A stretch of 64,000 bases of DNA from Mermis nigrescens (Eukaryota > Nematoda > Enoplea > Mermithida > Mermithidae), in the NCBI GenBank assembly GCA_036768485.1, contig JAVLUZ010000142.1, forward strand, positions 1,763,904 through 1,827,903, given 5' to 3'. Shown here piece after piece: positions 12,608 through 54,025 of this stretch. Numbering within the stretch: the stretch's first letter is position 1; the number at the start of each line of letters is the position of its first letter. The notes beneath the pieces were generated by a model. The model searched no databases, was not told the DNA's origin, and saw only the letters and a list, made by a program, of their open reading frames with translations. The translations under genes and the position numbers were made by a program.

Positions 12608-13033
12608 CTCATCCAGCCAGCTTTTTAGATCCAAAGTTGCTTGAAAAGGTATAAATAATTGAAATTGTTCAGAAACAAAATTAAACCACAGTTTCTATCT
12701 ATTTCCAAGCACTATTGTTGAACTTTTTCTTCAAATTCTTGCCATCGTTTGTCTTATTTTTTGTATACAGTTGACGACTTGTCTTTGTCTATTATAGGGC
12801 ATGTTGGCCTAAACTCAACTTTCTCTACGTTCATGCCTGCTCATCACCATTAAACTCACATGGCTGCATTACATCTTGATTCCGAATTCCTGACTCTGCA
12901 TCCATTTTTATTACATTTAACTGAAATAATAAAGCATTTTTCAGAAAAGAAAGCTAACCCACATTTGTATCTTGCACCATATTATTCTTTATCAACGTTT
13001 TTTATTTTATTTTTTATTCATCGTATCCTTCAG
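12608..13033 (+). other. GPCR gene 5' region and candidate 3' splice site
   Basis: The pyrimidine-rich run ending TATCCTTCAG (AG at 13032-13033) lies 7 bp before the receptor ATG and is conserved in copy 2 (CCTTCAG at about 31455-31461). This is the form of a 3' splice acceptor, so the first coding exon is probably preceded by a 5'-UTR intron or a trans-splice site. The open frame upstream of the ATG has no ATG and is best read as intron. Confidence 0.5.
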
Positions 13034-13040
13034 CATAAGT

Positions 13041-30287: not shown

Positions 30288-33200
30288 TTTCGGTCTTCGG
30301 GTAAAACGAAGGGACAATCTTATTTAAAACAGATGTGCATGAAATGTCATCGTATATATTTACAAGGTGGCCCATAAAAAAGGCTACATCTTTTAAAACG
30401 TCATAACATCGGCTGATCTTAATATAAAATTTTAAAACCAGCTGCATTAGGTAGGTGAACATGTCTTTATTTGATCAACGTTAAAAATTTTGGCCATCTT
30501 TTAGCGGTACCTGCAATACGGTGATTTGTTTACACCTACTGTTTAAACCCTATGGTTTCTGCATTATTATACATTACTATGTATGTTGGTATCCTTTTTG
30601 ACATTTTTACAATATATCCTGTCACAAAAATTAATAAGCAAATTTTTAAATCTCCAGAATAGACGCGCGTCCTTCTGAGTGCAAAAATTTCAGGATATCG
30701 TCAAAAGAGGGTGCAAATTGATGGCAGGACCAATGACGCTATCGGCGTTTAAATAATATTAAAGTAGGGTGTAAACAAATTGCCTTAGCGCCCGGAGCAC
30801 TGGGAAATGACCAAATTTTTCACACTTTTGGAAAGAAGAGACTTCTATCTATCGAATACAGTTAGTTTGAAGCTTTGAAGTCTACGTGAGTCGAAGTTAT
30901 GACCTGTCAAATCGGAATGTACCCTTTTTTTGGGCCACCCTGGATATCGCCATAAAATTTGTTTTTCTCCGTTTTTCGAGATGGTTAGTTCGAATATGTG
31001 TAGTAATATAAGAAAGAAATGTCCGTAAATTCATTCTCTAATAGCATCGGCCAGTCTGGATCTAATCCAGCCAGCTTTTTAGAGCCAAAGTTGCTTGAAA
31101 AGGTATAAATACTTCAAATTATTCAGAAACAACATTAAACAACACTTTCTAACCATTTCCAAACACTATTGTCGAACTTTTCTTTAAATTCTAGCGATCG
31201 CGTGTCTTATTTTCAGTATGAAGTTGACGACTTGTCTTTGTCTATTATGGGGGAATGTTAGCCTAAACTCAACTTTCCCTACATTCATGCCTGCTCATAA
31301 CCATTAAACTCACATGGCTGTATTACATCTTGGTTCCGATTTCCTGACTCTGCATCCATTAAAGCATTTTGTGAAAAGAAAGCTAACCCAGATTTGTATC
31401 TTGCACCATTTTATTATTTGTCACGTTTTTTAATTTATTTTTTATTCTTTGTGTCCTTCAGCATAAGTATGCCAACATCAAACGACTCACACAACAACAC
31501 AATCGTGCTTAACGATGACTGCAGTGATGACGACTACTTATTCAACCTGATTGGCGGCTTCATCATTGAAATATCCTCCATCTGCGGTATAATGGGTAAC
31601 GTCTTGTTCCTGATTACATTGTGTTGGGCAAAAAATTTCAAGCGGGATCCAGCCATTTTATTTGTCGTCAGTTTAATAGTCGCCGATATAGGCCATTTGT
31701 TAATTATGTTTACTCACGTTGGGCTAGAAAAAATAATCATCGCATGCATATATTGGGGCATTTATGAACAAATCGTCGATCATTCCAGCATTCTCTTCTG
31801 GTACGCTACTTTGCTCAATTTATCTCTCATTTGTACAAGTCGCTTGATAGCAACTCAATGGCCCAAGCAGTTCAAGCGTTTTTTTACCATTCGACGAGTA
31901 ACCTGGCTCATTTTCATCAGCTGGTCCTTCGCGTTGATCGTCAGCGTTTTACCACTGATGGGCGTCTGTTGCGCCGTCATCTTTGATCTATATGTGGACG
32001 AGGTTGAAGTGATGAAGGAGAGAGAACGTCGTAATATCTTGAAAATAATCACATACGCGGCTAATGGTATATTGACCATTTACATGCTGGTGGTTTACGG
32101 TAGGGTCATTAAGTATCTGCAGCGCCAAAAAACGCAAATCAAGCCACTACAAAATGCCACTAATCTGGCGGTAATTGGAACAATGCATGCTCGAATAGCG
32201 GGATTAACATCAGGAGCGACAATTCCAAGACGAAAAACGCCAAATTGAGCAAGCAACTGATGATCGTTTCCGCCATCTTCATCTCGTTGTGTGGCTCGTG
32301 GACCCTGAATCTGTTTTTTCGCTCAAAATTGACCGCTTCGATTGAGCAAGTGATGTACATGATGAATTCAAGCATGGCCCCGTTGCTTTTCTTTATCTTT
32401 GTCAAATATGTTCGCAAGAATTTCTTCGATGTGATCAAAAGAATTTGTCACTAACATGTTTGGGGAACCTGAATTCTGAAGGCTTGATGGCCCAAAAAGT
32501 ACAAAAATAAACAGGCCGAAAAATTGGTGTACAGAGCTGAAATTCGAATTTTTCGACGTGTTTTTGTGATTCAATCAAAGACTTAATAATGAAAAATTTT
32601 TTAAAATGCTTAGGTTGTATCACAACCTATAACTTACTCATAATTTTCTTATAAAGCACTGGTTGAAAAAAAATTGCAAAAAAGATTAGAATTTAGGAGT
32701 CGTGTTCAAAATTTTTGATATCTAGGAGAACAATTAAAAAAATTATTTATTGCAATATCAACCAAAAACGACATCAATGACGACGTCTTTATATTATTTT
32801 ATACCTTCAACTACTGTCTTCAAGGGAACTGCATGTTAGAAAAAAGCTTACTGAATGATTTAGATCGGCCCCCAACCCATCATGTTGTGCATCCATCCTA
32901 TTCATTTCCACTGCCTATCTTGCCGCTTATTAATTGATCAATCATCCTGTGCACAATGATTATCGAGCAAACAAGATCAGATCGCGAGCGGGCATTGGGA
33001 ATAAGCCATTCATTTCCAGAACGTTGCATATCAAACTATATTCTTCCCAACAATTGTCGAGTAGACACATGGACGAAAATTTTGGCAATAGCACAAAGAA
33101 TTCGATCTGAAACAGTCTGGTTAACTTTATGGCATGGCATAACATTTTCAGCTTATGTAAAACAAACATATTTTGTTACCAGACTCGATTTTCCATACTT

Positions 33201-35812: not shown

Positions 35813-36529
35813 CTATTTTGTCATCAGGGCATAGTGATTATTATCTACGCGCAAATTGATTATTTTTCCGGCCTTAGACCCTTCAAAAAACAAAATATTG
35901 TGCGAGTATACTCTAATTTGATAGTCTGGTACTAGAACATTTTGAATTTTTCAACGGCATCCAGACCGTAATTTTCTTTATCAGTGTTAAGATCAGCTTT
36001 GTGCAGTAAATCTAAAGCAAGTTGCTTTTGTAGCGTGCAACAGCTTTTATCTCCTTTTCTAATAGACTCCCATGTAGGGCTCTCTGTCCAGCTTTGCTAT
36101 TCCTGTGACAACAGCTCTAGGTATTGATAAATTATGGGTTGATGCAATTTTAATGTACGCTCTCTCTGCCCATTTGTGGTTGTTTGTCTACTACGACTAC
36201 TTGAAGATCATATCTTCGTCAAAGCTAAGCTCCTTAGTGCACTGTTCTATGTTTTCTATAATACTGAAAACTTTATCGGCGTTCAGATACTGACGCTGAG
36301 TGAAGGGGACTAATATAAGGAAGTCATGGCACGAATGCCCAATTTGCATGCCTATCAGACTGTCTGCGGGGTAATGCTTGAGTATCTGCTGGATAGCTTG
36401 CTCAAAGATCTCTTCTATATCAGGACAGTCATCAAGATTTTGGAACTTCAGCCAAAACGTCCTTGCGATTGACTTAAACCTACGAACAGAAGTGAATAAG
36501 TGTTCGCCTAATTCAACGTACTGATCCAT
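35813..36529 (-). pseudogene. Inverted-repeat gene, left copy (frameshifted)
   Basis: Homologue of the gene at 53310-54025. It starts at ATG 36529, conserved in both copies, and is open for 110 codons to about 36197. A one-base loss then creates TAG where the right copy reads on. The remainder to the TAG at 35813-35815 is recognisable in another frame. The upstream TATAAATA box lies 44 bp before the ATG. The product resembles the domain preceding many Polinton polymerases (a '...RAVV...' helix and terminal 'HYALI'), which I relate only tentatively to OTU-like folds. No catalytic Cys is visible at the expected place. Confidence 0.7.
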
Positions 36530-36565
36530 TTTTGAGGAAAACCATAACATATACTGCTTGACCCT

Positions 36566-36573: not shown

Positions 36574-36655
36574 GACAAAATTATTGCGTTAGATGGTAAG
36601 AATCCAAAAACTAGGAATGATGTTTATAAATGGATGGAATGCTAAAAATTGTAGT

Positions 36656-36934
36656 AGTATAGAGGGGGATCGCAAGCGTTTTTCGCAGGGGCCGCTCTAT
36701 CCTTAAGCATTACGAACAAAGCAAACTACAGTCCGACGCATAACCACATGCGCGATTTCAAGTTGTTTCTAAAAAGTTAAAGTGATTTATAAGGCGGATG
36801 CCGTTGGCAAAGTGCCAAAAAAAGATGGCAGCACATATGCGGTTTAACCCGTGAGTTTAATGTTTTAAATAGGACATATAAGCGGATTTAATGCACGTTT
36901 TTGTCAAAAAGCGACTAGTTTTAAGCATAGCAAA
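36656..36934. other. Inner flank of the left inverted repeat
   Basis: No gene. About 36660-36800 is the inverted counterpart of 48500-48750, sharing segments such as CCACATGCGCGATTTCA, and is shortened here. Confidence 0.6.
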
Positions 36935-37190
36935 GTCTATAAATATCAAAAATTATTTCTGAAAATTGTCATCCCGACTAAGATCAAAGTCTATAAATAA
37001 CAAAAATTTTCCGTCAAAAATTGTCATCCGACTATATCAAAAGCCTATAAATATCAAAATTTTTCGCAGAAATTTGTCATCCGACTATTTCAAAAGTCTA
37101 TAAATATCAAAAAGTCTATAAATACTAGAAAGTTTATAAATATCAAAAGTCTATAAATCTCAGAATTATCTCAAATTTTATAAATATATA
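36935..37190 (+). promoter_or_regulatory. Tandem array of TATA boxes upstream of polymerase B
   Basis: TATAAATA or TATAAATC boxes start at 36938, 36992, 37046, 37099, 37117, 37135, 37152 and 37179. The first four are spaced 53-54 bp apart as a tandem repeat (AAAGTCTATAAATATCAAAA then a GTCATCCGACTA block), followed by 17-27 bp spacing. The last box is 41 bp before the polymerase ATG. The array looks like an amplified core promoter. Confidence 0.8.
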
Positions 37191-37219
37191 GCTTACGAAT
37201 ACATAGTTTTCTGGAAACT

Positions 37220-40200
37220 ATGACTACAAATGTCAAAATTCCAGGGTTACTGGTCTCAGCGGGGCTAACAAATAGCTTCCGTCGGCCGACGCCAGTAACT
37301 TTTTTGGAGGCCGGCTCAAACCGATCGCAGCGCAAGCTGCACACATGCACAACATGCAATAAAACATATACACGACCTAACAAATTAAAAGAGCATGAGG
37401 AATCTGCGCATGTAGGTGCTAGGTACCGTTGCCCTTCATGTGCAGTACTTTTCAAGTTTCCTAAGAATCTTGTTACACATTATGAGAATAAGCACGCAGA
37501 AAATAATTGCATGTACTGTAATTCGTCAGATCTCTTCTCGGACACTCATATGAAGGCATGTTTACTAGTAAAAGCTAATCCAGGACCCGAATTAGAAAAA
37601 GTTGAGCCCGTTCAAATATCAGTGATGCCTGAGGACAGTCTTCTCCCTGAAGATTTGTCCGACTACCCTAATGATGTTAGGGAGGAAGTCAGGAAGTACT
37701 GGTATCTGATTCGTACAACTAAAAGCATAAATGATTTGCTAGATCACGCCTATAATTATCGCTGGGGAACTGGCGATTATTTAAAAATGCTGAGCGATAT
37801 TTTCATTCAAGAAAAAGAGGCTTTCCGCGTTGATGCGGCTTTAGGATATATTTTGAAAAATCGGGAAACTGGAGTAAGCAATTATTGGTACGCCTGTCAA
37901 AATAATTTTACTCTTCTAGGAAAACCAGTACTTATCAGGAACAGCGATGACGTAAAAAATTTAGCAGAAAAACTTCAAGAAATTGATATTGAGGAAAAAT
38001 TCAGCCGCCCAGATACAAAATGGGGAATTCAGGCTATTACAAACGTAGAATTTTTTGTAACTCCCCAGAAAAATTTCGTTGCTGGATGCACAGATATTGA
38101 ACTTCCGATAGAAACTAATGCATATCAGCGACACACTTTACACATGACACAGGATAAGCATAGAAATAAATTTCGCGATAACCTATGTTTATTCCGTTGC
38201 TTAGCACAATGTCTCGTTGGAAACTTTGAAGCAGACATAGTTTACAAACTTTTTGTACAGTATTGTCAAAAGAAAAATATTCAGGCTAACATTGAAAATT
38301 TTAATGGCGTTCCATACACCGATCTTGAAAAAATAGAAAAATGGTTTGAAATTGATATTCAATGTTATCACATTGATGTAGATAAACAGACAGCTGTTTG
38401 CTGGAAAAATACGATCAGGAAATATGACAAACTATTAAACTTAGACGTTTCAATGACTGCTTCTGATAAGGCACACTATAGCTATATAATAAATCTCGAT
38501 CAATATGCGACAAGATACGTCTGTATCAATTGCAGCAGACTATTTAAAAAATCAGAAAAATTACATGATCATGCGAAAAATCACTGCAATAAAGGGGAGA
38601 CAAAGCATAAATTTCCAGGCGGAGTCTTTCAATTAAAGAAAACTATTTTTGAAGAACTGGCCGACCTTGACATTCCCATAGGAAATCAATTTTGTTCTTA
38701 CTTAGCCGTATACGATTTTGAGGCACTTCTATTAAGAAAAGAAAAAATAAGTTCAACTAAATTACAATTTATCACTCAGCATCAACCGATTTCATGCGCA
38801 GTACATACAAATGTACCAGGATTTGCACCAACATGTTTTATTAATGAGGATCCTGATCAGCTAATCATACAATTACTGCAGCATCTCGAAAAAATTCAAA
38901 CAGCGCAAAGCGCCCAACTTTTACCTTATTTTCACAATATTTTCAAAGCTCTAGATCAAAAAATTCATAATCAGGAAGTATATGTTAAAGAACACGAAGA
39001 TAAGGATGTAAGACGCGAAATAGGATTCTTAAATCAGCTTAAAAAAGTTAAGACCAAGCTACATAGGTATTGTACTCAGTTAACTTGCCTTGGGTTCAAC
39101 TCGGGCAAATATGACCTAAATTTAATTAAGCGTAACTTATTTCCAGCACTCATACAACAAGTTCGCAAGGATCCGCAAAATAATAAATGGCCAAAAGCTA
39201 TTTTGAGAAATGGCACTACACTTTGCCTATCAACAAATCTTTTCAAATTTCTAGACATCAGCACCTATGTAGCTCCAGGTTTCAGCTTAGATGCATTCAT
39301 GAAAGCATATAAGGCGAGCTTAGTAAAAGCTAAATTTCCATACGAATATTTAGACTCCTTTGATAAATTATCTGAACAAAAGCTGCCTCCCCCTGAAGCT
39401 TTTTATAGCACCCTGAAAGAAGAATGTATAAGCGATGAAGATTATGAACAATGCATAAATTATTGGAAAAAATATAACATGAAGACTCTAAAAGACTATC
39501 TCATATTTTACAACATTCGAGATGTTGTACCATTCTTAGAAGCATGTTTGACCATGGCCCGGCTTTATTGGGACAGATTCAGAATAGATATTTTCAGGGA
39601 GGCAATGTCCCTACCAGGTATCACTGAGCGCTACCTATTTAGAAGCATTCCAGAAACCCAATTCGCTCTCTTTGCATCTTATTCTAAGGATTTGTACTAT
39701 ACACTAAAATCAAGCATGCGAGGAGGACTTTCTATGGTCATGACACGACTTGCAATAAAAGATGAGACATATATCCGCAACAATCCCAAGAAACCCGTCA
39801 AAGCGATAATTGGACTAGATTTTAATGCACTATATTTATGGGCGCAAGCCATGGATATGCCAACAGGCTACTTTGATCACTGGATTCCTGAGAAAAACGA
39901 TAAATTTCATAAAATCTCTTCCGCTAAGCCAATATCAATCGAATATCTAGAATACGAAAGTCAGAAAATGAGCCAGCCAATTCAGCATTCAGGAAATGGT
40001 AAAGAAAAAACTGTAGGACCCAGATGCTTACCTGTTGATGGGTTTTGCGCTAGCAACAAATACAGTATATGAATTTTATGGCTGCTACTGGCATGGCCAT
40101 GACTGCCTAGCAGGTGCACGCAATAAGGAAATCGACCCAGAGGAGGCACAAAACTGGATTAAGGAGAAGGAATCATACATTAAGTCTCTAGGATACAATC

Positions 40201-41457
40201 TCATCACTATATGGGAATGCCAATGGCATGAAATACGTATGGAATACTTAAAAACACAAAAGCTTAGGCACTTCTACTCATAAAAACTGGATTAGCACTA
40301 AGGAAATGACACAAGCAATACTTGATGGATCCATCTTTGGCTTTGCCAAGGTAGACATTTCAACCCCTAATCATTTAAAGGACCTATATGCCGACTTTCC
40401 ACCAATTATAAAGCATGCTGAAATCAGTCGAGAGGACGTCGGCCCTCTAATGAAAGAATATGCTGAAAAAATGGGTTTATTAAAAAAGCCACGGCAAAAT
40501 CTAATAAGCAGCTATTTTGGAAAAAATATCATGTTATCTACAGAAATGATAAGATTTCTTGTTAATCATGGCCTTACATTAGATAAAGTTCATGAGGTAA
40601 TACAGTATGAGAGAACAAGGCCATTTGAAAAATTTCGAGATATAGTAACAAAGCATAGGCAAGAAGGGGATGAAGACCCAGAACTTGCTATGCTGGCTGA
40701 TACATTCAAACTTCTTGGAAACACAGGTTACGGAAAGACACTCACTAACAAAGAACAACACATAGATGTCTCATATGCCGACTATGAAAAAGCAGCTGAA
40801 TGCAGCTTAAGTCCTTTCATTAAAAAAATTAAGCATATTACTAACAACTGTTATGAAATACATATGCGTAAAAAGCAAATAACCTTAGATTTACCGATTG
40901 TAGTAGGCCTTTTGGTATATAACTGGGCAAAAATTCGCATGCTAGAATTTTTCTACGATGTATTATTGAAATTCTTTGACAAGTCAGATTATCAATGTAT
41001 GCAGACTGACACAGATAGCATTTATTTAGCTTTGTCTGCAGAAAATTTGTTAGATATAGTAAAGCCGGAAAAAAGGCAAGAGTTTGAGCAAGTTTATTCA
41101 CACTGGTTTGTAACATCTAAAGCAACCAAAAGAACACCCGGTTTACTAAAAGAGGAATTCAGAGGAACAGCTATGTGCTGTTTAGCCGCTAAAACGTACA
41201 TTGCTGTAGATGAGACAACAAATAAAATCAAGTCTAGCAGTAAAGGCTTAATGAAGAAGGTAAATAAGCTGAGCTTCGAGCAGTACAGCAATGTCTTGCA
41301 AAATCAGGAACCACAAGGCGGAAAAAATATTGGTTTCCGCATGCAACCAGATAATCAAATATGGACATACATACAAGAAAAGCAGGGACTACCATACTTG
41401 TATGTTAAAAGAAAAGTTTTATCTGATGGAATAACAACAGTCCCATTAGATATATAA
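37220..41457 (+). pseudogene. polB: Protein-primed family B DNA polymerase (two frameshifts)
   Basis: About 1,400 codons, the usual size for Polinton PolB. Two C2H2-like fingers lie at residues 43-64 and 71-92 with a third partial cluster at 97-114. An OTU-like segment has DNLCLFRC at 320-327 and HYSYI at 419. Exonuclease motifs are DFE (499-501), N627...D632 and YxxxD (764-768). Motif A is GLDFNALY (D867). Motif B (KLLGNTGYG, about 40706-40732) and motif C (TDTDS, 41005-41019) lie in the last segment. The frame breaks at about 40041-40050 (T run) and about 40245-40262 (A runs), each consistent with one extra base. All catalytic motifs survive. It would replicate the element by protein priming. 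Confidence 0.92.
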
Positions 41458-41506
41458 AAATTTCAACTTAACAAAATTTCTGAACACTGTAAATTTTCTA
41501 TGCCTT
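41458..41506. other. Spacer after polymerase
   Basis: Short AT-rich spacer before the inverted-repeat structure. Confidence 0.5.
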
Positions 41507-42075
41507 AACATGTATAATTTATTTCAAACATTGCAAACTATTCTGTAAGTTTCACTCCAAATGCACATGAATTTGTGCCCACTTGACTCATATTACAGGA
41601 ACATTGACACAATACTGAGTTAATTTTAGCGTAAAAAAATAAAGATTTTTCTCAGCACATTATACAAGAAAGGAGCAGCCTGTTGAAACAGGATGTTTTC
41701 CATGTACATATCGTGCCTTGTGAGGAGCAAGTGCCGGCGATGTGTATGTGGTTCTGTGGTACATTCTCAGCTGTACCCCGCGATCCGGGTTAGTGGCAGT
41801 TGGGGTGTATACCTGTATGAATGTTGTAGTATGCGAGCGCTACCTCCCCAAAAGGAGTTCGTGGGCGAGCGTATACTTGTTTGAATGATCTTTCTTGTAC
41901 ATTATGTTAAGAAAAAGTTTTAATTTTTTTACGATAAAATGCCTCAGTTTTGTATCAATCTTCCTGTGTTATGAGTCAAATGGGCACAAGTTCATGTGCA
42001 TTTGGAGTAAAGCTTTCAGAATAGTTTGCATTGTTTGGAATAAATTTTACGTGTTTAGGTGTATAAATTTTGCAG
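41507..42075. repeat. Large imperfect inverted repeat with GC-richer loop
   Basis: The left arm (about 41507-41660) and right arm (about 41895-42075) are complementary over roughly 150 bp. They share, for example, CTCCAAATGCACATGAA in the left arm and its complement near 41994-42012. The loop of about 230 bp is GC-richer and has no recognised RNA or gene. It sits between the polymerase and TBP genes. It could be a nested foldback element or a structured replication/transcription region. Confidence 0.75.
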
Positions 42076-42197
42076 TATTTAGAAATTTTTGTATATATGG
42101 TCAAAAAATAAAATTTTCAGCTTTTCAGCTGGAAATGACTCACCATTGTGCCAACCTCCCCGTGGTGTGAGTCGGACATTGACAAATGGGCACAGAA

Positions 42198-42385
42198 GTT
42201 TGTAAAGTTTGGAAAATTTTTTGTAAAGTTTGGAATATTTTTTGTAAAGTTTGGAATATTTTTTGTAAAGTTTGGAATATATTTTACATGCTTAAGCATA
42301 GTACTTTTGTAAAGTTTGGAAAATTTTTTGTAAAGTTTGGAAATTTTTTGTAAAGTTTGGAATATTTTTTGTAAAGTTTGGAAAT
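42198..42385. repeat. Iteron-like tandem array with central palindrome
   Basis: About eight units of TTTGTAAAGTTTGGAATATT (20-22 bp) in two blocks, separated by a segment containing the perfect 12-bp palindrome ATGCTTAAGCAT at 42288-42299. Related arrays lie downstream of the other two TBP copies (50166-50265; 51540-51775). The one at 51540 also has ATGCTTAAGCA at 51648-51658. Position conservation implies a function, such as an origin or 3'-end element of the TBP gene. Confidence 0.8.
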
Positions 42386-42389
42386 TTTG

Positions 42390-42905
42390 CTATTTAATTT
42401 GGCATTGCTCGAGCATTGTTGAAACTATTTTATATGCTATATGCAATTCATGCTCTCTTTTTGCACCAGTGAGAATCATTTTTCCGCTTGTAAAGAGCAA
42501 AAATGTCACATTTCGAAATTTGTACACTAAACCAGGGAATAATTCTACTTCGTACATGCATTTTCTTTTCACTAGCTCATAAAATTTGCAAAGATTAATG
42601 CGAAATCCTAAATTAGCAGAGCCTACAAACAGCTGAGGCGTTATTTCCAGCAGCAAATTCTCCATGTTCAGCATATTGATGAATACTTTTATCACATTTT
42701 CACCATCTTTTATAGTTTTTGCTCCGAGACATACAATTTTACCCGACCTGAAAATCAGCAGTGTAGCCTGGGGTAATCGAAATATGATGCCTGGAAATTT
42801 CTGCCGATTATACTGCGCTGTATTTGGTAATTTCAGGTAGATGTCATCTAGATCAAGCACATTTGGTAGGCATGTAGTCAACACAATGTTTTGTATGGTA
42901 ACCAT
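42390..42905 (-). CDS. TATA-box-binding protein (TBP) homologue
   Basis: 171 aa made of two imperfect repeats, which is the TBP saddle without an N-terminal extension. Repeat 1 has IQNIV (4-8), KFPGIIF (36-42) and LLIFRSGKIVCLGAK (49-63). Repeat 2 has VGSANLGF (94-101), ELFPGLVY (121-128) and LLFTSGKMILTGAK (136-149). Phe37, Phe52, Phe123 and Phe138 align with the four TATA-intercalating phenylalanines of yeast TBP (99, 116, 190, 207). The repeat-1 dyad Asn is kept (N6); its repeat-2 partner is Leu92. It is divergent from animal TBP, so it is not a fresh host copy. It is divergently arranged with the integrase (46 bp apart) and has its own TATA box. Inferred role: core-promoter recognition for the element's TATAAATA promoters. 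TBP is not in the known core Polinton gene set. Confidence 0.92.
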   Translation of the reverse strand: MVTIQNIVLTTCLPNVLDLDDIYLKLPNTAQYNRQKFPGIIFRLPQATLLIFRSGKIVCLGAKTIKDGENVIKVFINMLNMENLLLEITPQLFVGSANLGFRINLCKFYELVKRKCMYEVELFPGLVYKFRNVTFLLFTSGKMILTGAKREHELHIAYKIVSTMLEQCQIK

Positions 42906-42910
42906 TTTTT

Positions 42911-42918
42911 AATAAATA
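42911..42918 (+). promoter_or_regulatory. Weak TATA-like box of the integrase
   Basis: AATAAATACT, one mismatch from the element's consensus, starting 41 bp before the integrase ATG and lying immediately after the TBP start codon. Confidence 0.45.
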
Positions 42919-42939
42919 CTTTAAACTCTTCTTTGTCTA

Positions 42940-42947
42940 TATTTATA
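42940..42947 (-). promoter_or_regulatory. TATA box of the TBP gene
   Basis: TATAAATA on the minus strand, first T 42 bp before the TBP ATG, in the 46-bp space shared with the integrase gene. It would allow TBP to regulate its own transcription. Confidence 0.75.
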
Positions 42948-42951
42948 AACG

Positions 42952-44004
42952 ATGGAACCATTAAAGATACAGTGGACTGAGGTGGGCAAGCCGGGCGCAT
43001 TTGCAGGTATCAATAAACTGCAAAAAGTTAGCAAAGCATCAAATAAGCGAGTAAAAGAATTTTTGTCTAAACAGTTTACTTATCAATTGCATAAACCAGT
43101 GAGGAAGCGATTTCCTAGGCGGGCAATTATAGTTTCAGGTCCTAATCTTCTGTGGGATGTAGATCTTCTTGATCTTAAAGAATTTAGGAATAAAAATTAT
43201 AAAAATCGATACATATTGATGGCTATTGATGTTTTTTCGCGTAAAGCTTATGGACAGGCAATGACTAATAAAAGTGCTAAGACTGCATCACAAGCTTTTG
43301 AAAAAATATTGCCCCTTAACATCCCTCAGGCAGTGCGAACTGATCATGGTAATGAATTTAAAGGGGAATTTAATAGATTGCTTAAGTCATACAAAATCAA
43401 GCATATATTGACAAGTAGTCCCGAGATTAAGGCTAATTTTGTGGAGCGATTTCATAGAACATTCCGTGACAAGCTCATGCGATACATGACATACTATTCA
43501 AATGAAAATTGGACAAAGGTATATAAAAGCATCATTGAGAGCTATAATAACACGCCTCATAGTAGCCTTAACAATACAGCCCCAAATGATGTAAATTCTG
43601 AAAATACAGGAGAATTATTAGCATTTATGCTAAAAAATAGAAAAATGTGTAAACCAGAAGCAACACTTCCTATTGGACAACTTGTGAGAATAACTTCCCT
43701 CAAAAGCGGTTTTGCAAAAGCGAGCAAGCACACATATACTGATGAGCTGTTTCGTATTAAAGAGGTGTCAGACAGTTGTCCTAAAACATACAAGTTGGAA
43801 GATTTGATGGGAGAACCAATCATTGGTGCATTTTATAGAAAGGAGCTCCAAGTAGCTGAACCAGGGGCTGAAATGCATAAGCGAGTCGCAAAAGCTATAA
43901 ATACTGGTAAAGGGACATACAAAGTAAAATTTAAAAATTGGCCAAATAAGTTTGACACAGAGTTAACAAAGAGAGAACTTAAGTTTTATGAGCAGCCAAA
44001 ATGA
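42952..44004 (+). CDS. int: Polinton integrase (retroviral type)
   Basis: 350 aa with an rve-type catalytic core. Likely catalytic residues are D71 (in WDVDLLD), D131 (in TDHGNEF) and E165 (in NFVERFHRTF). The N-terminal part ends in the Polinton-type 'YQLHKPVRKRF' segment. The C-terminal approximately 50 residues resemble a degenerate chromodomain (YKVKFKNWPNKFDTEL). It would insert the element and generate the 6-bp target duplication. Its stop overlaps the ATPase start as ATGA (44001-44004). It is clearly different in sequence from the two decayed integrases at 48760-49814 and 52125-53181, which belong to another lineage. Confidence 0.93.
   Translation: MEPLKIQWTEVGKPGAFAGINKLQKVSKASNKRVKEFLSKQFTYQLHKPVRKRFPRRAIIVSGPNLLWDVDLLDLKEFRNKNYKNRYILMAIDVFSRKAYGQAMTNKSAKTASQAFEKILPLNIPQAVRTDHGNEFKGEFNRLLKSYKIKHILTSSPEIKANFVERFHRTFRDKLMRYMTYYSNENWTKVYKSIIESYNNTPHSSLNNTAPNDVNSENTGELLAFMLKNRKMCKPEATLPIGQLVRITSLKSGFAKASKHTYTDELFRIKEVSDSCPKTYKLEDLMGEPIIGAFYRKELQVAEPGAEMHKRVAKAINTGKGTYKVKFKNWPNKFDTELTKRELKFYEQPK
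43896..43903 (+). promoter_or_regulatory. Possible internal TATA box upstream of the ATPase
   Basis: GCTATAAATACTGG within the integrase frame, 105 bp before the ATPase ATG and so outside the usual 32-44 bp window. It could serve the ATPase or be only coding sequence. Confidence 0.25.
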
Positions 44005-44639
44005 TTTTAGAACATCCATTTACATGCATTGTTTCTGGTCCAACAAAATCAGGTAAAACAACATTTGTGAAAAAACTTATAGAAAACCGTGAAACAATAA
44101 TTGACACAAAAATCACAAAGATCTGGTGGTGCTTTACAGAAGATCAACCATTATATAAGAAGCTTAAAAATGTCTCATTTATCACTGGATTACCTGACTT
44201 TAGCAGGCTTAAGGAGGCCAGCCCAACACCCCAGTTACTTATACTTGATGATCTTATGCAGGAAAGCAAAGGAAATGCACAAATTATACAACTATTCACA
44301 CGAGGTTGTCATCACTGGAACGTTAGTGTGGTTCACATTGTGCAAAACCTATTTTTTGATGGACTACGCACTTCTCGCATAAATTCTGATTACATAGTTT
44401 TGTTTAAAAATCCTGCCGATCAATTACAGGCACAAGTTTTATCTAGACAGCTTTATCCTAACAATCAGAAATATTTTCTAGAAGCTTATTCAGATGCAAC
44501 TTGTAAACCTCACGGTTATCTTTTCATTGATCTAACTCAAAATATTTTGGACACTTATAGGTTAAAAGCGGATATTTTCAATAAGCATCCTACTATTTAT
44601 GTACCAAAGCCTATAAATACCGATAGAAATATTAAATAA
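44001..44639 (+). CDS. atp: A32-like DNA-packaging ATPase (FtsK/HerA superfamily)
   Basis: 212 aa. Walker A is GPTKSGKTT (residues 13-21) and Walker B is LLILDDL, followed by the family's glutamine/asparagine-rich sensor strand (VVHIVQNLFF). The family drives genome packaging in Polintons, adintoviruses, virophages and large DNA viruses. It overlaps the integrase by 4 bp (ATGA), suggesting stop-start coupled translation. The C-terminal codons contain the TATA box (44612) for the next gene. A fragment of a second-lineage ATPase lies at 50841-50979 (-). Confidence 0.94.
   Translation: MILEHPFTCIVSGPTKSGKTTFVKKLIENRETIIDTKITKIWWCFTEDQPLYKKLKNVSFITGLPDFSRLKEASPTPQLLILDDLMQESKGNAQIIQLFTRGCHHWNVSVVHIVQNLFFDGLRTSRINSDYIVLFKNPADQLQAQVLSRQLYPNNQKYFLEAYSDATCKPHGYLFIDLTQNILDTYRLKADIFNKHPTIYVPKPINTDRNIK
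44612..44619 (+). promoter_or_regulatory. TATA box for the 44649 gene
   Basis: CCTATAAATACC, 37 bp before ATG 44649, embedded in the last codons of the ATPase (encoding PINT). Confidence 0.75.
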
Positions 44640-44648
44640 AAATGTAAG

Positions 44649-44999
44649 ATGGCTCCAAAACGACTAAAACAGAACATAACGTGTTTACACGTACTAAGTA
44701 ATGCGAAAAAACCTCAGAGAAATGCGCTTATAAATACTGCTAGCAAAGACCAGATTCTCTGCATATGTGATTGTGCTCACAACTTTTTAAACGGTAATAT
44801 TCCATTCTCTGAGAAGGAAATCAACACACTTCGAAGGTATCAGAATCAAATTAGATATTTGGCAAATAATAAGCAGGCAACAACAAAACAAAGAAAAAAC
44901 ATTATATTACAAAACGGTGGTTTTCTTCCTTTATTACTCACACCCATACTTTCAATTGTTGGCAGTCTATTAGCTGATGCAATAGTTGGTAAAAAATGA
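44649..44999 (+). CDS. Conserved small Polinton protein with C-terminal hydrophobic helix
   Basis: 116 aa. It has a basic N-terminus (MAPKRLKQN) and a Cys-containing middle segment (ILCICDCAHN). Next come a charged helix with a Lys/Arg cluster (KQATTKQRKN) and a strongly hydrophobic C-terminal helix after QNGGFLPLLLTPILS. This layout, placed between the ATPase and capsid genes, recurs in Polintons and adintoviruses. A core- or membrane-associated virion protein is plausible; the function is unknown. Its stop overlaps the next start as ATGA (44996-44999). Confidence 0.75.
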   Translation: MAPKRLKQNITCLHVLSNAKKPQRNALINTASKDQILCICDCAHNFLNGNIPFSEKEINTLRRYQNQIRYLANNKQATTKQRKNIILQNGGFLPLLLTPILSIVGSLLADAIVGKK

Positions 45000-45565
45000 A
45001 GCACACTGAAAAGATAATTTTAATACCTAGTGAATTAACTGAACATACAAAGCCTGTTGACACCCTGCTTGGCTCCTTAGACAGAGAAATGCAAAAAATT
45101 TTGAATGGAAAGAATGTACCACAAGATGTAAAGCTCATAAAATATAATCAACTAATTGGCAGATTTATGCGATTGCAGGAAAAGAAAAAGCAACCATATA
45201 AGGTAAACATCATAGACAGCAAAAATGACAATGATGAGGAAATCCTTGCTGATGTTCCAAAATCGAACTATCAAAAGGCTAAAATGCTTCTACATTATAT
45301 TCGCAGCAATCCTAGTATTGAAATCGACCCTAATGGCGAGCTTGTTATACATGGTCAAAAAATTCGTGGTTCAAGCATCACAGATATACTACACGATTTG
45401 GCACGTGAGCGAAAAAACATAAGCAAACATCCTGGTACAATAGAATTACTAAAAGCACTTAATCGAACAAATGTTCCAATTGAAAGCATTGCTAATAAAC
45501 AGGGAAGGCAAATTTTTACAGCAGCGCGAACTAATGTAGATTTTGATTGGGAAGAAAGTCTATAA
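44996..45565 (+). CDS. Conserved Polinton protein of unknown function (189 aa)
   Basis: Mostly helical and charged. It has a segment of the form 'LLGSLDREMQKILN...VKLIKYNQLIGRF' at the start, an acidic linker (NDNDEE), and a C-terminal globular part of the form 'AKMLLHYI...GELVIHGQKI..SSITDIL'. I recognise this organisation from Polinton-type elements next to capsid genes, but no enzymatic motif is visible. It is joined to the preceding gene by a 4-bp ATGA overlap. Its last codons overlap the TATA box of the next gene (45561). Confidence 0.72.
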   Translation: MKHTEKIILIPSELTEHTKPVDTLLGSLDREMQKILNGKNVPQDVKLIKYNQLIGRFMRLQEKKKQPYKVNIIDSKNDNDEEILADVPKSNYQKAKMLLHYIRSNPSIEIDPNGELVIHGQKIRGSSITDILHDLARERKNISKHPGTIELLKALNRTNVPIESIANKQGRQIFTAARTNVDFDWEESL

Positions 45566-45568
45566 ATA
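45561..45568 (+). promoter_or_regulatory. TATA box for the pX-like gene
   Basis: AGTCTATAAATACT, 39 bp before ATG 45600. It overlaps the stop codon of the upstream gene. Confidence 0.78.
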
Positions 45569-45599
45569 CTCATTATTATATATGAATAAAATTACAAAA

Positions 45600-46040
45600 A
45601 TGCATGTTCAATTTCACCCAGACGATTACAATCTTTGGCTGCAGTATTACACTGGGCAGGCGGGCTATGGGTTGGAGGGGTTTAGGGGAATTCCATATCA
45701 GCGGGGGGTTGGTCTTGGTAGTTTTTTCCGTTCACTTTTCAGAATGGCTGTTCCTGTTTTGCAATCTATTGGTAAGCAAGTAGGAAAACATGCTTTAGTG
45801 GCAGGTGCAAATATAGCGTCCGATGTGGTTCATGGAAAGCCCCTCTTTCAATCAACTAAAGAACACTCAAAGCGAGAAGCTGCTCAGCTTTTTGATGAGG
45901 CCTCTAAAGCCCTTCAGCAGCAAGGGGAAGGTCTTGGTTATCGCTCAAAGTCTATAAATACTAGTGTAAATGATGCTTTTTATAATAAAAATGGCTCTCA
46001 TAGACGTAAAATCAATTCCAAGCACAAAAAGCGAACTTGA
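45600..46040 (+). CDS. pX-like minor virion protein
   Basis: 147 aa. A hydrophilic start (MHVQFHPDDYNLW) is followed by a glycine-rich stretch (GQAGYGLEGFRG). The hallmark follows: GVGLGSFFRSLFRMAVPVLQ and a Gly/Ala-rich amphipathic helix ending 'ANIASDVVHGKPL'. The C-terminus is very basic (HRRKINSKHKKR). It resembles the adenovirus-pX-like proteins of adintoviruses and Polintons, thought to be membrane-active or DNA-associated virion components. I chose ATG 45600 because it is 39 bp from the TATA box, the usual spacing here. ATG 45582 in the same frame is the alternative. The 3' end overlaps the capsid gene in another frame. Confidence 0.75.
   Translation: MHVQFHPDDYNLWLQYYTGQAGYGLEGFRGIPYQRGVGLGSFFRSLFRMAVPVLQSIGKQVGKHALVAGANIASDVVHGKPLFQSTKEHSKREAAQLFDEASKALQQQGEGLGYRSKSINTSVNDAFYNKNGSHRRKINSKHKKRT
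45953..45960 (+). promoter_or_regulatory. TATA box for the major capsid gene
   Basis: AGTCTATAAATACT, 38 bp before ATG 45991, embedded in the pX-like coding sequence (encoding SINT). Confidence 0.8.
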
Positions 46041-47282
46041 CCTTTTTACAGTTCCACCTACCCAGGTGGTGATAAAGCGAGGCTTCTGGCATGAAATCCA
46101 GCCAACGCATCCCATTACTAATGAGGGACCGTATGAGTTCAGAATTCCGCCTGACCCGCATTACCTACAACTGAGTAAAAACCACATTTATATGCTATTA
46201 AGAATTAAAAAACCAACGGTTGCAGTAGGCGCAGCTTTACCTGACTATGCTCCCATCAATCTTATAGGTAAAACTTTTTTCAAGCAAGTAAAATGCTTTT
46301 TAGGCGGACAATTAGTTTTTGACAGCTCTGATAAATATGCTTACAGATCTTATTTTGAAACGGAGCTAAATTATGGATATGATGCAAAACATTCACAATT
46401 ACAGTCATCCCTGTACTTTCATGACGGGGGCAGTAAAGTCGACACAAAAGATAGTGAATCATTCAAAAAGCGTTCAAAAATGTTCAAAGATGAAAATATT
46501 GTTGAAGTTTCAGCTCCACTGCACATTGACATGTTTTTGCAAGACAGATATCTAATTAATTTTACCGATTTTTGCATAGAATTACATAGAAACAGCAATG
46601 CCTTTGTTTTGCAGTGCTTTGAAGATGTAAATTTAGTACTACAAGTTCTACAAATGAAATTTTTTATTCGAAAAGTTGAAATTTTGGACAGTGTAAATCT
46701 GGCAGTCGAGCAAACTATGCTTGCTCATACAGCAAAATATCCCATAAGACGTGTGGCCATGACCAACTTGCATATATCAAATCCTGCGAGAGAAACGCCT
46801 AGCTACACATTGTTCACTGGTCAGTTACCTAGGCGTATTGTATTTGCTTGTGTTGAGGGCAGTGCTTATCGAGGTAGTTTAGCAAAGTCACCTTTCAATT
46901 TTAAACCGTTCAACATACATGACGTAAAAGTAACGTGTGGTGGTGTAACGTTTCCTGCATTTCCACTTAGCATTTCATTTGAGCACAATATGTACTTACA
47001 AGCTTTTAATCAAATGTATGAAGCATTAGATTTAGGACGCGAAGGTAATTTTATTAGCAGAGATGAATTTAAAACAAGTCACTGTTTTTTGTTTTTGACC
47101 TGACTCCTGATGAAGATGATGGCGGACATTGGGATTTAGTCCACGAAGGTACAACTAGCATTCATATAAAATTCAGTAGCAATTTGCCCGATTCAGGTGC
47201 TGAAATTATTATATATGCTGAGTTTGATAATTTGATAATGATCGATAAAAATCGTAACACTTTTCATGACTATAACGCATAA
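45991..47282 (+). pseudogene. mcp: Major capsid protein (double jelly roll), -1 frameshift near the C-terminus
   Basis: The Polinton major capsid protein, about 430 residues expected. It starts MALIDVKSIPS and contains the conserved 'KRGFWHEIQPTHPI' region and the two jelly-roll halves. The reading frame hits TGA at 47101-47103, but the conserved end (FDLTPDEDDGGHW ... AEFDNLIMIDKNRN) continues in the -1 frame to TAA 47280-47282. The shift falls at TTTTTTG (47085-47091), which has the form of a -1 slippery heptamer X XXY YYZ in the correct phase. Either programmed frameshifting, a one-T loss, or a sequencing error explains it. It would form the hexameric capsomers. Confidence 0.9.
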
Positions 47283-47284
47283 AC

Positions 47285-47707
47285 ATGAATACTATTGAAA
47301 TAATCAAAATTCTCAATGCTGCTTTTCAGAACAATACATTTTTAGGTGTTTTTCCATTAGATCTTGTACCGCATATCAAAAATTATCCAGCTGCCCTGGT
47401 AGTGAATCTGGACGATAGCAGAAAACCTGGCTCTCACTGGGTTGCCCTCTATTTTAATCAAAAAGGCCACTGTGATTACTTTGACAGCTATGGAAGAAAA
47501 CCGTATGAGCTTAAACATTATATACAGCTCAATGCAAAAGCATTCACTTACAATAATGCAAAAGTTCAAGGAATATTTAGCATTTCATGTGGTCATATGT
47601 GCATCTATTTCCTAGTTTGCCGTGCACATGGTATCCCATTTAAAAACATTATCGCATCAATGCAAAATGAAAAAATCTATAAATACTTTAATAAGCTTAG
47701 CTTGTAA
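47285..47707 (+). CDS. pro: Adenovirus-type cysteine protease (maturation protease)
   Basis: 140 aa and intact. The catalytic triad is visible as His51 (GSHWVALYF), Asp67 (YFDSYGR) and Cys102 (SCGHMC), with Gln95 as the likely oxyanion residue. This is the C5/Ulp1-like protease that matures virion proteins. The ATG follows the capsid gene stop after 2 bp (TAA AC ATG), suggesting reinitiation after capsid translation. The TATA box for the next gene (47678) is inside its last codons. Confidence 0.93.
   Translation: MNTIEIIKILNAAFQNNTFLGVFPLDLVPHIKNYPAALVVNLDDSRKPGSHWVALYFNQKGHCDYFDSYGRKPYELKHYIQLNAKAFTYNNAKVQGIFSISCGHMCIYFLVCRAHGIPFKNIIASMQNEKIYKYFNKLSL
47678..47685 (+). promoter_or_regulatory. 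TATA box for the penton-like gene
   Basis: ATCTATAAATACTT, 32 bp before ATG 47710, within the protease coding sequence. Confidence 0.75.
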
Positions 47708-47709
47708 AC

Positions 47710-48495
47710 ATGGATACCAAACAATTTTATATCACGCTTCCGAGCAATTCCCAAGAAACAAATACTGCAGCCAGTATTTGTAACAAACCTACCTAGACAA
47801 ATCGTATTGAATGCGGCGAGTGGGAGGTTGGTTTGGTTGAAATAATTTATGCAAATACATGGCACAATGTTGCCGAGGACCAGAATATGATACAGTTTTA
47901 TGACATTAAAAACAATGTGCGAACAAAAATTGTTAATTCCTCGAGCAAGGTACTTAAATATAGATGATCTTGATTAAGACAATCACTAATGGGAATAAAA
48001 ATGATTAGTCATTAAATGAAAAATTTGAATACTTGCAATACTTTGGCATAAGGTATGATGATAATAAGAAATTCTGTCACCTAAAAATTAATACAGAATA
48101 TATTCGAAGTGTAAAGTTAACAAAGCATTTACTATATATGATGGGATTTCTGGAAAGCCAGCTTAGCAATATAAATTATTCTGTGGCGCAAGATTTGACC
48201 ATAGTAGCAAACCATTCTCCTGATATACTAGGTGGAATGCATAATTTTTACGTATATTGTGATATAGTTGAGCCTCAAATTGTTGGAAATATTTTTGCAC
48301 CACTTCTGCAAGTCGTAAATATTGAAGGAAAGTATATGGACATCATAAATCACTCATATATTAGTCCGCATTATATTCCTGTACTCAAAAAATCATTCAA
48401 TACTGATTGAAGTAAACATTAAAAGCGATCAAGACCAACCTGTACCTTTTGAGTTCGGAAAAACTATCGTAAAATTACATTTTAGAATGACTTAG
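47710..48495 (+). pseudogene. Penton-like minor capsid protein (single jelly roll), decayed
   Basis: It begins with the family start (MDTKQFYITLPSNSQ) and then has an in-frame TAG after 28 codons. Further recognisable pieces lie in other frames: GEWEVGLVEIIYA near 47820, an open stretch to 48410 with FYVYCDIVEPQIVGN, and an end with VPFEFGKTIVKLHF before TAG 48493-48495. At least three frame or stop lesions are present, more than in any neighbour, so this is genuine decay and not one sequencing slip. The intact family forms the capsid vertices. Confidence 0.85.
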
Positions 48496-48759
48496 ACTCA
48501 TCCGACTTATAAATCACTTTAACTTTTTAGAAACAACTGAAATCGCGCATGTGGTTATGCGTTGGACTGTAGTTCGCTTTGTTCGCGGTTCGGCCCCCAG
48601 TGACCCATACTTTTTTCTTTTCCCGAAGGTAGCCAAAGGCGGACCTTCGGGCCAGCGGCCCTGCGAAAAATGCGGGGGCGGCCAACCTGTAATGCTTAAG
48701 GATAGAGCGGCCCTGCGAAATGCGCTTGCGACCCCGCTCTATTCTACAATTGTTCAAGA
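48496..48759. other. GC-richer segment at the start of the second-lineage block
   Basis: Inverted counterpart of 36660-36800 with an extra GC-rich stretch (48590-48700). Frames here are short and I see no protein family. Confidence 0.6.
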
Positions 48760-50165: not shown

Positions 50166-50265
50166 AGTTTTGCAGAGTTTGGAAATTTTTTTGTAAAGTT
50201 AGGAAATTTTTTGTAAATTTTGGAAATTTTTTTGTAAAATTTGGAAAATTTCACGTAAGTTTGGA
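50166..50265. repeat. Iteron-like array near the second TBP copy
   Basis: About five diverged TTTGTAAAGTTTGGAAATTT units, equivalent to 42198-42385. Confidence 0.75.
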
Positions 50266-50269
50266 AAAT

Positions 50270-50781
50270 ATATCATTGAATTTCGCATTGTTTAAGTATT
50301 GTTGAGACTGTTTGCGATGCGCTATATGCCTCATGCTTGTGTTTTTTACCTGTACAAATCATTTTTCCGCTTGTAAGAAGCAAAATTTATATTTCTAAAT
50401 TTGTATACTAAACAGGAAACAATTCTACTTCGTACATGCATTTCCCATTTACCATCTCATAAAATTTACAAAGATCAATGCGAAATCCCAAATCAGCCGA
50501 GCCAACGAACAGTTCAGGCTTTATTTTCAACATTGAATTATCCACCTTTAGTATGTGGGTGAATGCCTTTATTGTATTTTCGCTCTTCTTGTATCGTTTT
50601 AGCTCCAACGCATACAATTTTACAAGATCTGAAAATCAGCAATGTTGCCGAGTTAATCGACAATACCTGGAAATTTTTGGTGATTGTATTGCGCAGTATT
50701 TGGCAATTTCAGATAGACATCATATAGATTTAGCGTATTCGGCAGTGCTGTAGTTAGCACAATGTCCTGTATTGTGACCAT
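50270..50781 (-). pseudogene. TBP homologue, second copy (decayed)
   Basis: Reads from ATG 50781 with pieces of both saddle repeats. The repeat-2 start (KPELFVGSADLGFRIDLCKF) is intact in one frame, and the end continues in others. Inverted twin of 51025-51539. Confidence 0.85.
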
Positions 50782-51024: not shown

Positions 51025-51539
51025 ATGGTCACAATACAGAACATTTTTGCTAACTACAGCACTTCCGAATACGCTAAATCTAGATGATGTTTATCTGAAA
51101 TTGCCAAATACTGCGCAATACAATCACTAAAAATTTCCAGGTATTGTATTTCGATTACCTCAGGCAACATTGCTGATTTTCCGATCGGGTAAAATTAGTA
51201 CGCATTGGAGCTAAAACTATACAAGAAGGCGAAAATACAGTGAACGCATTCACCCATATACTAAAGATGGATAACTCAATGTTGAAAATAAAGCCTGAAC
51301 TGTTCATTGGCTAACTTGGGATTTCGTATTGATCATTGTAAATTTATGAGATGGTAAATGGGAAATGCATGTACGAAGTAGAATTGTTTCCTGGTTTAGT
51401 ATACAAATTTAGAAATGTAACCTTTTTTGCTTTTTACAAGCGGAAAAATGATTCTTACAGGTGCAAAACACAAGCATGGGGTGCATATAGCCTATATAAA
51501 GGAGTCTCATTAATACTTGAACGATGCCAAATTAAATGA
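51025..51539 (+). pseudogene. TBP homologue, third copy (decayed)
   Basis: MVTIQNIF start and both saddle repeats are recognisable, with a TAA after about 26 codons and later shifts. The end retains YEVELFPGLVYKFRNV and a C-terminus ending ERCQIK. The TATA box lies 38 bp upstream. It is more like 50270-50781 than like 42390-42905. Confidence 0.88.
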
Positions 51540-51775
51540 TAATTTTCCAATCTTACAAGAAATTTTCCAAACTTTACACAAAGTTTTCCAAACTCTACAA
51601 AAATTTCCAAACTTCACATAAAAATTTCCAAACTCTGCAAAATCCCTATGCTTAAGCACGCGAAATCAATTCCAAACTCTGCAAAAAATTTTCCAAACTT
51701 TACAAAAAAATTTCCAAAGTTTACAAAAAAATTTCCAAACTTTACAAAAAATTTCCAAACTCTGCAAAACTTTAA
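51540..51775. repeat. Iteron-like array near the third TBP copy
   Basis: Complement-strand units of TTTCCAAACTTTACAAAAAA type, with ATGCTTAAGCA at 51648-51658 between two blocks, as at 42288-42299. Confidence 0.8.
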
Positions 51776-53274: not shown

Positions 53275-53309
53275 AGGGTCAAGCAGTATATGCTATAGTT
53301 TTCCTTAAA

Positions 53310-54025
53310 ATGGATCAGTACTTTGAATTAGGCGATAACTCATTCACTTCTGTTCGTAGGTTTAAGTCAATTGCAAGGACGTTCTGGCTGAAGTTCCCAA
53401 ATCTTGATGACTGTCCTGATATAGAAGAGATGTTTGAGCAAGCTATTCAGCACCTACTCAAGCATTACCCCGCAGACAGTCTGATAGGCATGCCAATTGG
53501 GCATTTGTGCCTTGACTTCCCTATATTAGTCCCTTCAATCAGCGTCAGTATCTGAACGCCGATAAAGTTTTCAGTATTATAGAAAACATAGAACAGTCCA
53601 GTAAGGAGCTTAGCTTTGACGAAGATATGATCTTCAAAGTAGTTGTAGTAAACAAACAACCACAATTGGGCAGAGGAGCGTACATTAAAATTGCATCAAC
53701 CGATAATTTATCACTACCTAGAGCTGTTGTCACAGGAATAGCAAAGCTGGACAAGAGCCCTAAATGGGATTCTATTAGAAAAGGAGATAAAAGCCGTTGC
53801 ACGCTACAAAAGCAACTTGCTTCAGATTTGATGCACAAAGCTGATCTTAACACTGATAAAGAAAATAACGGTCTTGATGCTGTTGGAAAAATTCAAAATG
53901 TTCAAGTACCAGACTACCAAATTAGAGTATACTCGGACAATATTTTGTTTTATGAAGAACCTAAGGCCGAAAAAATAATCAATTTGCGCGTAGATAATAA
54001 TCACTATGCCCTGATTACAAAATAG
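53310..54025 (+). pseudogene. Inverted-repeat gene, right copy (frameshifted)
   Basis: About 238 codons in two frames. The first 82 codons run from MDQYFELG to a stop near 53555. A one-base loss at about 53533-53540 (the left copy has one more C) moves the rest to the frame that is open at 53627-54025, ending ...HYALITK. The protein looks like the domain found in front of, or beside, Polinton polymerases. Function unknown. The left copy has a different single-base lesion, so neither copy is intact. Confidence 0.72.

Follow-up and report, generated by a model that had tools for sequence, protein, structure and literature searches.

A Polinton of the nematode Mermis nigrescens that encodes a protein of the TATA-box-binding protein family and carries candidate TATA promoters before most of its genes

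The window analysed here, a stretch of 64,000 nucleotides of the Mermis nigrescens genome, contains a 12,095-bp Polinton of the organization designated by us as type A (positions 36653-48747), which is bordered by a 6-bp target duplication (AATTGT) and is nested in a larger element with terminal inverted repeats (TIRs), a point absent from the original prediction made for this DNA. The ends of the inner Polinton are AGTAGTATAGAG and, less exactly, GTAGAATAGAG; its TIRs begin with AG, and the right end departs from the left one in the first bases. The other arm of the outer element shows this AATTGT site in its unoccupied state. The latter (34857-55049; target duplication AATATA) is a decayed palindromic relative of the type B elements described below, and the alignment of its TIRs comprises 1659 identities, 126 mismatches, and 104 gap positions. 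To the right, it forms a palindrome that contains relics of integrase as well as two decayed copies of the gene of TATA-box-binding protein (TBP), recognized by similarity at about 50276-50781 (minus strand) and, in the other palindrome arm, at about 51038-51536 (plus strand). A short ORF of the outer TIRs (36197-36550, minus strand; 53307-53638, plus strand) is conserved in type B copies and has no match in Pfam. Rhodopsin-type GPCR ORFs without visible introns are present in the host flank (12972-14045 and 31394-32248).

The genes of the inner Polinton are arranged in the order PolB (plus strand), TBP (minus strand), integrase, ATPase, three small ORFs, capsid, protease, and a penton-like gene (all on the plus strand). 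The integrase (rve; 42952-44004), the A32-like packaging ATPase (44001-44639), and the adenovirus-type cysteine protease (47285-47707) were assigned by Pfam matches above the cut-offs. The PolB gene (37220-41457) is split into three frames (37220-40072, 40017-40283, and 40306-41457), none of which gave a polymerase match in Pfam, and its naming is based on the ordered motifs YDFEA, DFNALY, NTGYGK, DTDSIY, and KTY alone, the patterns of which we take to be those of protein-primed PolB. The change of frame between 40017 and 40306, with about 250 bp between the long pieces, occurs at about the same place in the window and in all six type A copies mentioned below, and may represent an intron, a frameshift, or a shared old lesion. 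The major capsid protein gene (MCP; 45970-47282, frame broken near 47103) was named via relatives of its product, one of which, the 79% identical protein P0045, was modelled with a pLDDT of 74.5 and resembles the capsid proteins of PBCV-1, Sputnik, and mavirus (TM 0.5-0.64), as expected of a double jelly roll fold; P0045 is without any Pfam match, and PF21738 scored below its cut-off in two relatives. The broken gene at 47710-48410 is similar to a 251-aa ORF that follows the protease gene in another element of this genome (L048), and presumably encodes a penton-like minor capsid protein. Thus PolB, MCP, and penton genes of the window copy are broken, likewise a point absent from the original prediction, while those of TBP, integrase, ATPase, and protease are open. 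The placement of the TBP gene inside a Polinton, as originally predicted, is borne out by the rve, ATPase, and protease matches, the PolB motifs, the capsid fold, the TIRs, and the 6-bp duplications.

Between PolB and TBP, an inverted repeat occupies positions 41473-42089 (200-nt arms, 81% complementary, and a 217-nt loop). Tandem 21-bp repeats (TTTGTAAAGTTTGGAAAATTT; 42199-42388) adjoin the 3' end of the TBP gene, and arrays of this kind also occur at 50168-50267 and 51544-51769, bordering the 3' side of all three window copies of TBP. On its other side, the TBP gene is separated from the integrase gene by a divergent region of 46 bp (42906-42951), in which the box TATAAATA is located at position -42 on the TBP strand.

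The intact, intronless TBP gene (42390-42905) encodes a protein of 171 aa. The original prediction quoted several peptide strings of this protein and named no strand; they are all present in the uninterrupted translation of the minus strand, and the plus strand contains several stops in the same frame. The protein matches the TBP family profile PF00352 in two stretches (E 5.9e-42, 141.9 bits, cut-off 22.9). Its AlphaFold2 model (mean pLDDT 91.3) has the saddle fold of TBP, with TM scores of 0.92/0.88 to DNA-bound human TBP (1cdw), and the identity in the structural match is 34% for human TBP and 40% for Sulfolobus TBP. The four phenylalanines proposed to intercalate DNA, F37, F52, F123, and F138, align to F99, F116, F190, and F207 of yeast TBP and are invariant across the 10 copies of alignment A4. 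The profile, the predicted fold, and the four phenylalanines identify the product of 42390-42905 as a member of the TBP family; the binding of TATA itself is predicted.

With cellular TBPs (animal, yeast, and archaeal), the element protein shares the two-repeat saddle, the intercalating phenylalanines, and the TFIIB stirrup, but it is minimal, lacks an N-terminal extension, and differs in the basic TFIIA-contact residues and in two groove residues. Positions aligned to yeast E186, E188, and L189, which we take to be TFIIB contacts, are kept and form a part of a eukaryote-like stirrup of the EEL type (E-x-E-L-F-P-G). Yeast K138, Y139, and K145, presumably contacts of TFIIA, are replaced by V, F, and M, with the loss of basic residues. 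Among the residues assumed by us to be the polar residues of the yeast TBP minor-groove surface, N69 and T215 are kept, while T124 and N159 correspond to L60 and L92, because of which the affinity of the element TBP for TATA could be changed or weakened. Residues of this kind are not required by PF00352, and their changes lower the claim of canonical specificity.

A search of the 524-Mb assembly (860 contigs) with the TBP protein resulted in 2160 candidates, of which the best 150 were scored; all of them match, at 75-100% identity, and 140 are without a stop, in a list that favours the best copies. Twenty copies spread over the identity range were retrieved with their flanks. The ATPase gene adjoins TBP or is near to it in all 20, and the divergent gap between the start of TBP and that of integrase or ATPase is 43-49 bp. 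Six copies (L020-L025) have the type A order PolB, TBP, INT, ATPase. The remaining 14 (L026-L039) are of type B, with the TIR ORF, a chromodomain integrase, TBP, and ATPase, followed, unless rearranged or cut, by ORFs, capsid, and protease. Both ends could be assigned for four type B elements of about 9.1-9.8 kb each: L028+L054 (9,089 bp, target duplication TCCACA), L026+L055 (TTGCTT), L033+L058 (CTCTGG), and L029+L056 (CTTGGG, judged by eye). No PolB match was found in the type B loci, these four complete elements included. Ends were sought in three more type B copies, with none found for L031, only the right one for L035, and only the left one for L038. The copies L030, L034, and L036 are palindromic type B derivatives, similar to the outer window element. 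Their arms both contain at least integrase and ATPase, and in L030 and L034 also TBP.

The association of TBP with capsid genes is visible also from the capsid side. When the best 109 of 2432 capsid candidates were scored, 57 had a listed TBP 1.7-3.1 kb upstream, in each case on the opposite strand. The pairing took in the 150 matches of the TBP search, 82 of 150 matches of a TBP profile search (two host exons and places already counted were left out), and all 109 capsid loci. The remaining 52 capsid loci have no TBP among the matches listed; they include three with a 99% identical capsid (C423:30847, C696:163406, and C190:557431), so some relatives may lack TBP.

The TBP copies are under purifying selection. 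In the window copy and 20 others, of which L033 was entered without its first Met, 197 of the 210 pairs were usable (0.05 < dS < 2), and in all of them dN/dS was below 1 (median 0.154, range 0.08-0.47). The youngest pairs, of small dS, are among those with the highest values (0.39 to 0.47), as expected after insertion. Hence, TBP belongs to the regular genes of a large Polinton family, being subject to selection and syntenic, and is not a stray capture. The original description of the locus as a Polinton that encodes its own TBP is supported by this selection, the synteny, the pairing with capsid genes, and the distance to the TBP of the host, which is encoded by two exons on contig C73: the host protein is 75% identical to yeast TBP, while the window TBP is 37% identical to either of them. 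Further support comes from a second Polinton family, represented by L048 and L049, with a different TBP beside its capsid genes.

This second family was found by the TBP profile search (best 150 of 2552 candidates scored), which revealed further open TBP frames of about 175-201 aa. In L048 and L049, TBP follows capsid, protease, and penton genes, and in L050 it is located near a capsid fragment. The loci L042-L047, L051, and L052 are of uncertain class. A fragmentary integrase match is present in five of the six loci L042-L047, and in these six as well as in L052 the TBP has as its neighbour an ORF judged by eye to be F-box-like. Genes of the window Polinton other than TBP had no match within 4 kb in L051 and L052.

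A tree of 38 sequences was built from the window protein, eight of the 20 retrieved copies, 12 archaeal proteins, seven of 11 IMG/VR proteins, seven TBPs of the other families, the metagenomic protein P0165, and the TBPs of the host and of yeast; L043-L045, L047, and L053 were left out. The window family, L050, and P0165 form one clade (support 97/91), and L042/L046, L051, and L052 another (99/96), whereas L048/L049 group with the TBPs of host and yeast (92/91). Of the seven TBPs from IMG/VR, five constitute a clade of their own (100/99) and two are long branches standing alone; the window TBP is not among them. Thus, repeated TBP genes of three lineages are present in the genome, and two of these lineages neighbour capsid genes of Polintons, which corresponds to one or more captures. 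The location of the third lineage on mobile elements is less sure than that of the two beside capsid genes.

Outside this genome, P0165 (52-53% identical, on a 1,670-bp contig) is the only TBP of the window type among the 120 of 174 matches listed, while capsid relatives of up to 79% identity are common in metagenomes. Searches of IMG/VR with P0001, INT, MCP, and alignments A4 and A3 yielded no close relative, and those with alignment A2 only distant viral TBPs. Of the cellular TBPs, the archaeal ones show the highest identity to the window TBP (up to 43-45%). An archaeal origin was nevertheless not accepted, since the stirrup for TFIIB has the eukaryotic EEL form and the backbone of the tree is weak. 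Nor is an origin from giant viruses or mirusviruses supported by the tree, although its deep branches have weak support and long branches come together.

Apart from its coding content, the inner Polinton is distinguished by the distribution of TATAAATA. In addition to the box in the divergent region, seven boxes form an array of about 250 bp before PolB (36938-37186), and single boxes, all on the plus strand as well, precede genes of the right part. The one at 44612-44619 is located inside the ATPase ORF, 37 nt before the ATG of the ORF starting at 44649. Those at 45561-45568 and 45953-45960 are parts of GTCTATAAATAC; the former precedes two candidate ATGs of the ORF 45543-46040 by 21 or 39 nt, and the latter the capsid gene by 17, 20, or 38 nt, depending on the ATG chosen. 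The box at 47678-47685 lies 32 nt before the penton-like gene. As these four boxes overlap the coding 3' ends of preceding genes, one sequence serves there the protein and, likely, a promoter. With 48744 (not 48747) taken as the end of the inner element in counts and upstream tests, the element contains 14 boxes, compared with a mean of 1.8 in 200 dinucleotide shuffles (highest 8), while the host flanks contain 10 versus about 11.6 expected, that is, without enrichment. A longer form, GTCTATAAATA, occurs six times in the inner element and is absent from the 43.8 kb of host flank.

Six of the ten genes of the window element (PolB, TBP, ORF116, ORF165, capsid, and penton) have a box at most 60 nt upstream of the first ATG; the starts of MCP and ORF165 had initially been picked with the boxes in view, and the test was rerun with the first ATGs. 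Random windows contain a box in 0.4-2.7% of cases, and the binomial P for six of ten genes is 8e-8 under the harshest background; with PolB left out, it is 2e-7 for five of nine. An extended box, CTATAAATAC, is present at four of the six genes. The distance from box to likely ATG is 32-42 nt, and therefore the transcripts would have very short leaders. No exact box was found upstream of INT, type A ATPase, ORF189, and PRO, with a one-mismatch box at INT; these genes may be co-transcribed.

A similar pattern appears across copies when boxes at most 75 nt upstream are considered: PolB 4/4, TBP 22/23, capsid 15/15, ORF116 19/21, TIR ORF 17/17, ATPase 14/23 (all 14 in type B or in the window relic), and ORF165 5/12. 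No box was found at this distance from INT (0/8), ORF189 (0/18), PRO (0/13), chromodomain INT (0/10), and the penton fragment (0/4). These counts are not independent, because the copies share ancestry and include palindrome repeats and decayed ones; only the within-element test is independent. In L048 and L049, which belong to another TBP lineage, the 4 kb covered contain no TATAAATA, against a chance expectation of about one. The ORF beside the different TBP of L042 is preceded by GTCTATAAATA, and the box thus also accompanies a TBP other than that of the window.

An intact TBP gene together with TATA boxes before most genes makes it likely that the element supplies its own promoter-recognition factor. 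In our opinion, the Polinton-encoded TBP-family protein probably binds the TATAAATA boxes that precede genes of the element, where TFIIB and Pol II of the host would be recruited by it. It would be made from the divergent TATA promoter, bind the boxes at PolB, capsid, penton, its own gene, and two further genes, and bring in TFIIB and Pol II by means of the kept TFIIB-contact residues, leaning little on TFIIA, the basic contact residues for which are lost. Through the 46-bp divergent region it could feed back on its own gene, and it might allow expression of the element where host TBP is limiting or engaged elsewhere. Binding, TFIIB use, feedback, transcription, and independence from host TBP are all inferred by us from sequence. 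The original suggestion that promoter recognition is partly independent of the host is made likely by the boxes and the kept TFIIB residues, but host TBP could bind TATAAATA as well.

Since TATAAATA should be acceptable to ordinary TBP, another explanation can be considered, in which the boxes are read by host TBP, and the Polinton protein competes for TFIIB or TATA promoters, lowering host transcription or shifting it to the element. Kept TFIIB contacts and lost TFIIA contacts, if their presumed roles are right, would suit such a competitor. We nevertheless consider it unlikely, as TBP shares the divergent TATA region with element genes next to which it is found in every retrieved copy, and the majority of genes of the window element have the box, which is unenriched in the host flank. 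Marginally less probable still is a role of the protein in bending DNA at the PolB array for copy-number control, the start of replication, or packaging, rather than as a general promoter factor. Seven boxes before PolB do exceed the need of one promoter, and a 21-bp repeat array borders each window copy of TBP, but single boxes at a similar distance before several other genes resemble core promoters, and TBP is kept in the four complete 9-10 kb elements that have no PolB match. A recent capture of the gene as a retrocopy from the host, or its persistence as a neutral passenger, as its lack of introns and the higher dN/dS of the youngest pairs might suggest, is highly improbable and is rejected in view of its low identity to host TBP, its purifying selection, the relative P0165 outside the genome, and the tree, which contradicts a recent retrocopy.

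With Polinton/Maverick elements (Polintoviricetes), the window element shares the TIRs, 6-bp duplications, rve integrase, A32-like ATPase, protease, double-jelly-roll capsid, and PolB motifs, and it adds to them a set of candidate TATAAATA promoters and a TBP gene of constant position. Polintons are thought to depend on host promoters, and to our knowledge a core transcription factor does not belong to their gene set. The presence of a second TBP-family protein in one genome is known in animals from TRF1, TBPL1, and TBPL2, which are host genes. Virus-borne TBP-family proteins also exist in giant viruses and mirusviruses, but their carriers are much larger, and the structural matches in BFVD are 8-21% identical among the 50 matches listed.

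In passages retrieved by term, a TBP is mentioned in mirusviruses (59% of genomes; PMC10132985), in Yellowstone phycodnaviruses (PMC4602308), and in Cymbomonas viral elements that lack polymerase and double-jelly-roll genes (PMC10675990). A passage of PMC10328495 deals with the nuclear-escape hypothesis and with how shared transcription proteins originated. The passages retrieved by term from the Polinton/Maverick literature (PMC4028283, PMC4642659, PMC8097293, PMC10120064, and PMC11071308) contain neither TATA nor TBP, and no Polinton TBP is reported in the titles and abstract openings of the literature searched, with an earlier mention elsewhere being possible. As far as these sources go, a TBP of their own is not known for Polintons.

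A wider interpretation of the probable action of the element TBP on its own promoters can be put forward only tentatively, and we would sooner doubt than assert it as a whole. Animal Polintons may have private promoters, composed of a self-encoded, retuned, TFIIA-light TBP and the extended box (CTATAAATAC, often after GT) at most genes, which would be kept even in compact elements without PolB, with several TBP lineages taken up by different Polinton-type families. Such elements could be a living example of a step on a possible path from Polinton-like viruses to giant viruses, in which the promoter factor came first and the entire transcription apparatus followed.

The occurrence of an own TBP with matching TATA boxes makes it testable how virus-like transposons control their genes in the nuclei of animals, and whether the gathering of transcription genes began at a still nuclear stage in the Polinton-like ancestors of giant viruses. 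The natural TBPs of this genome, many of which are 36-45% identical to each other and to that of the host, additionally provide material for studies on the evolution of TBP specificity and cofactor use.
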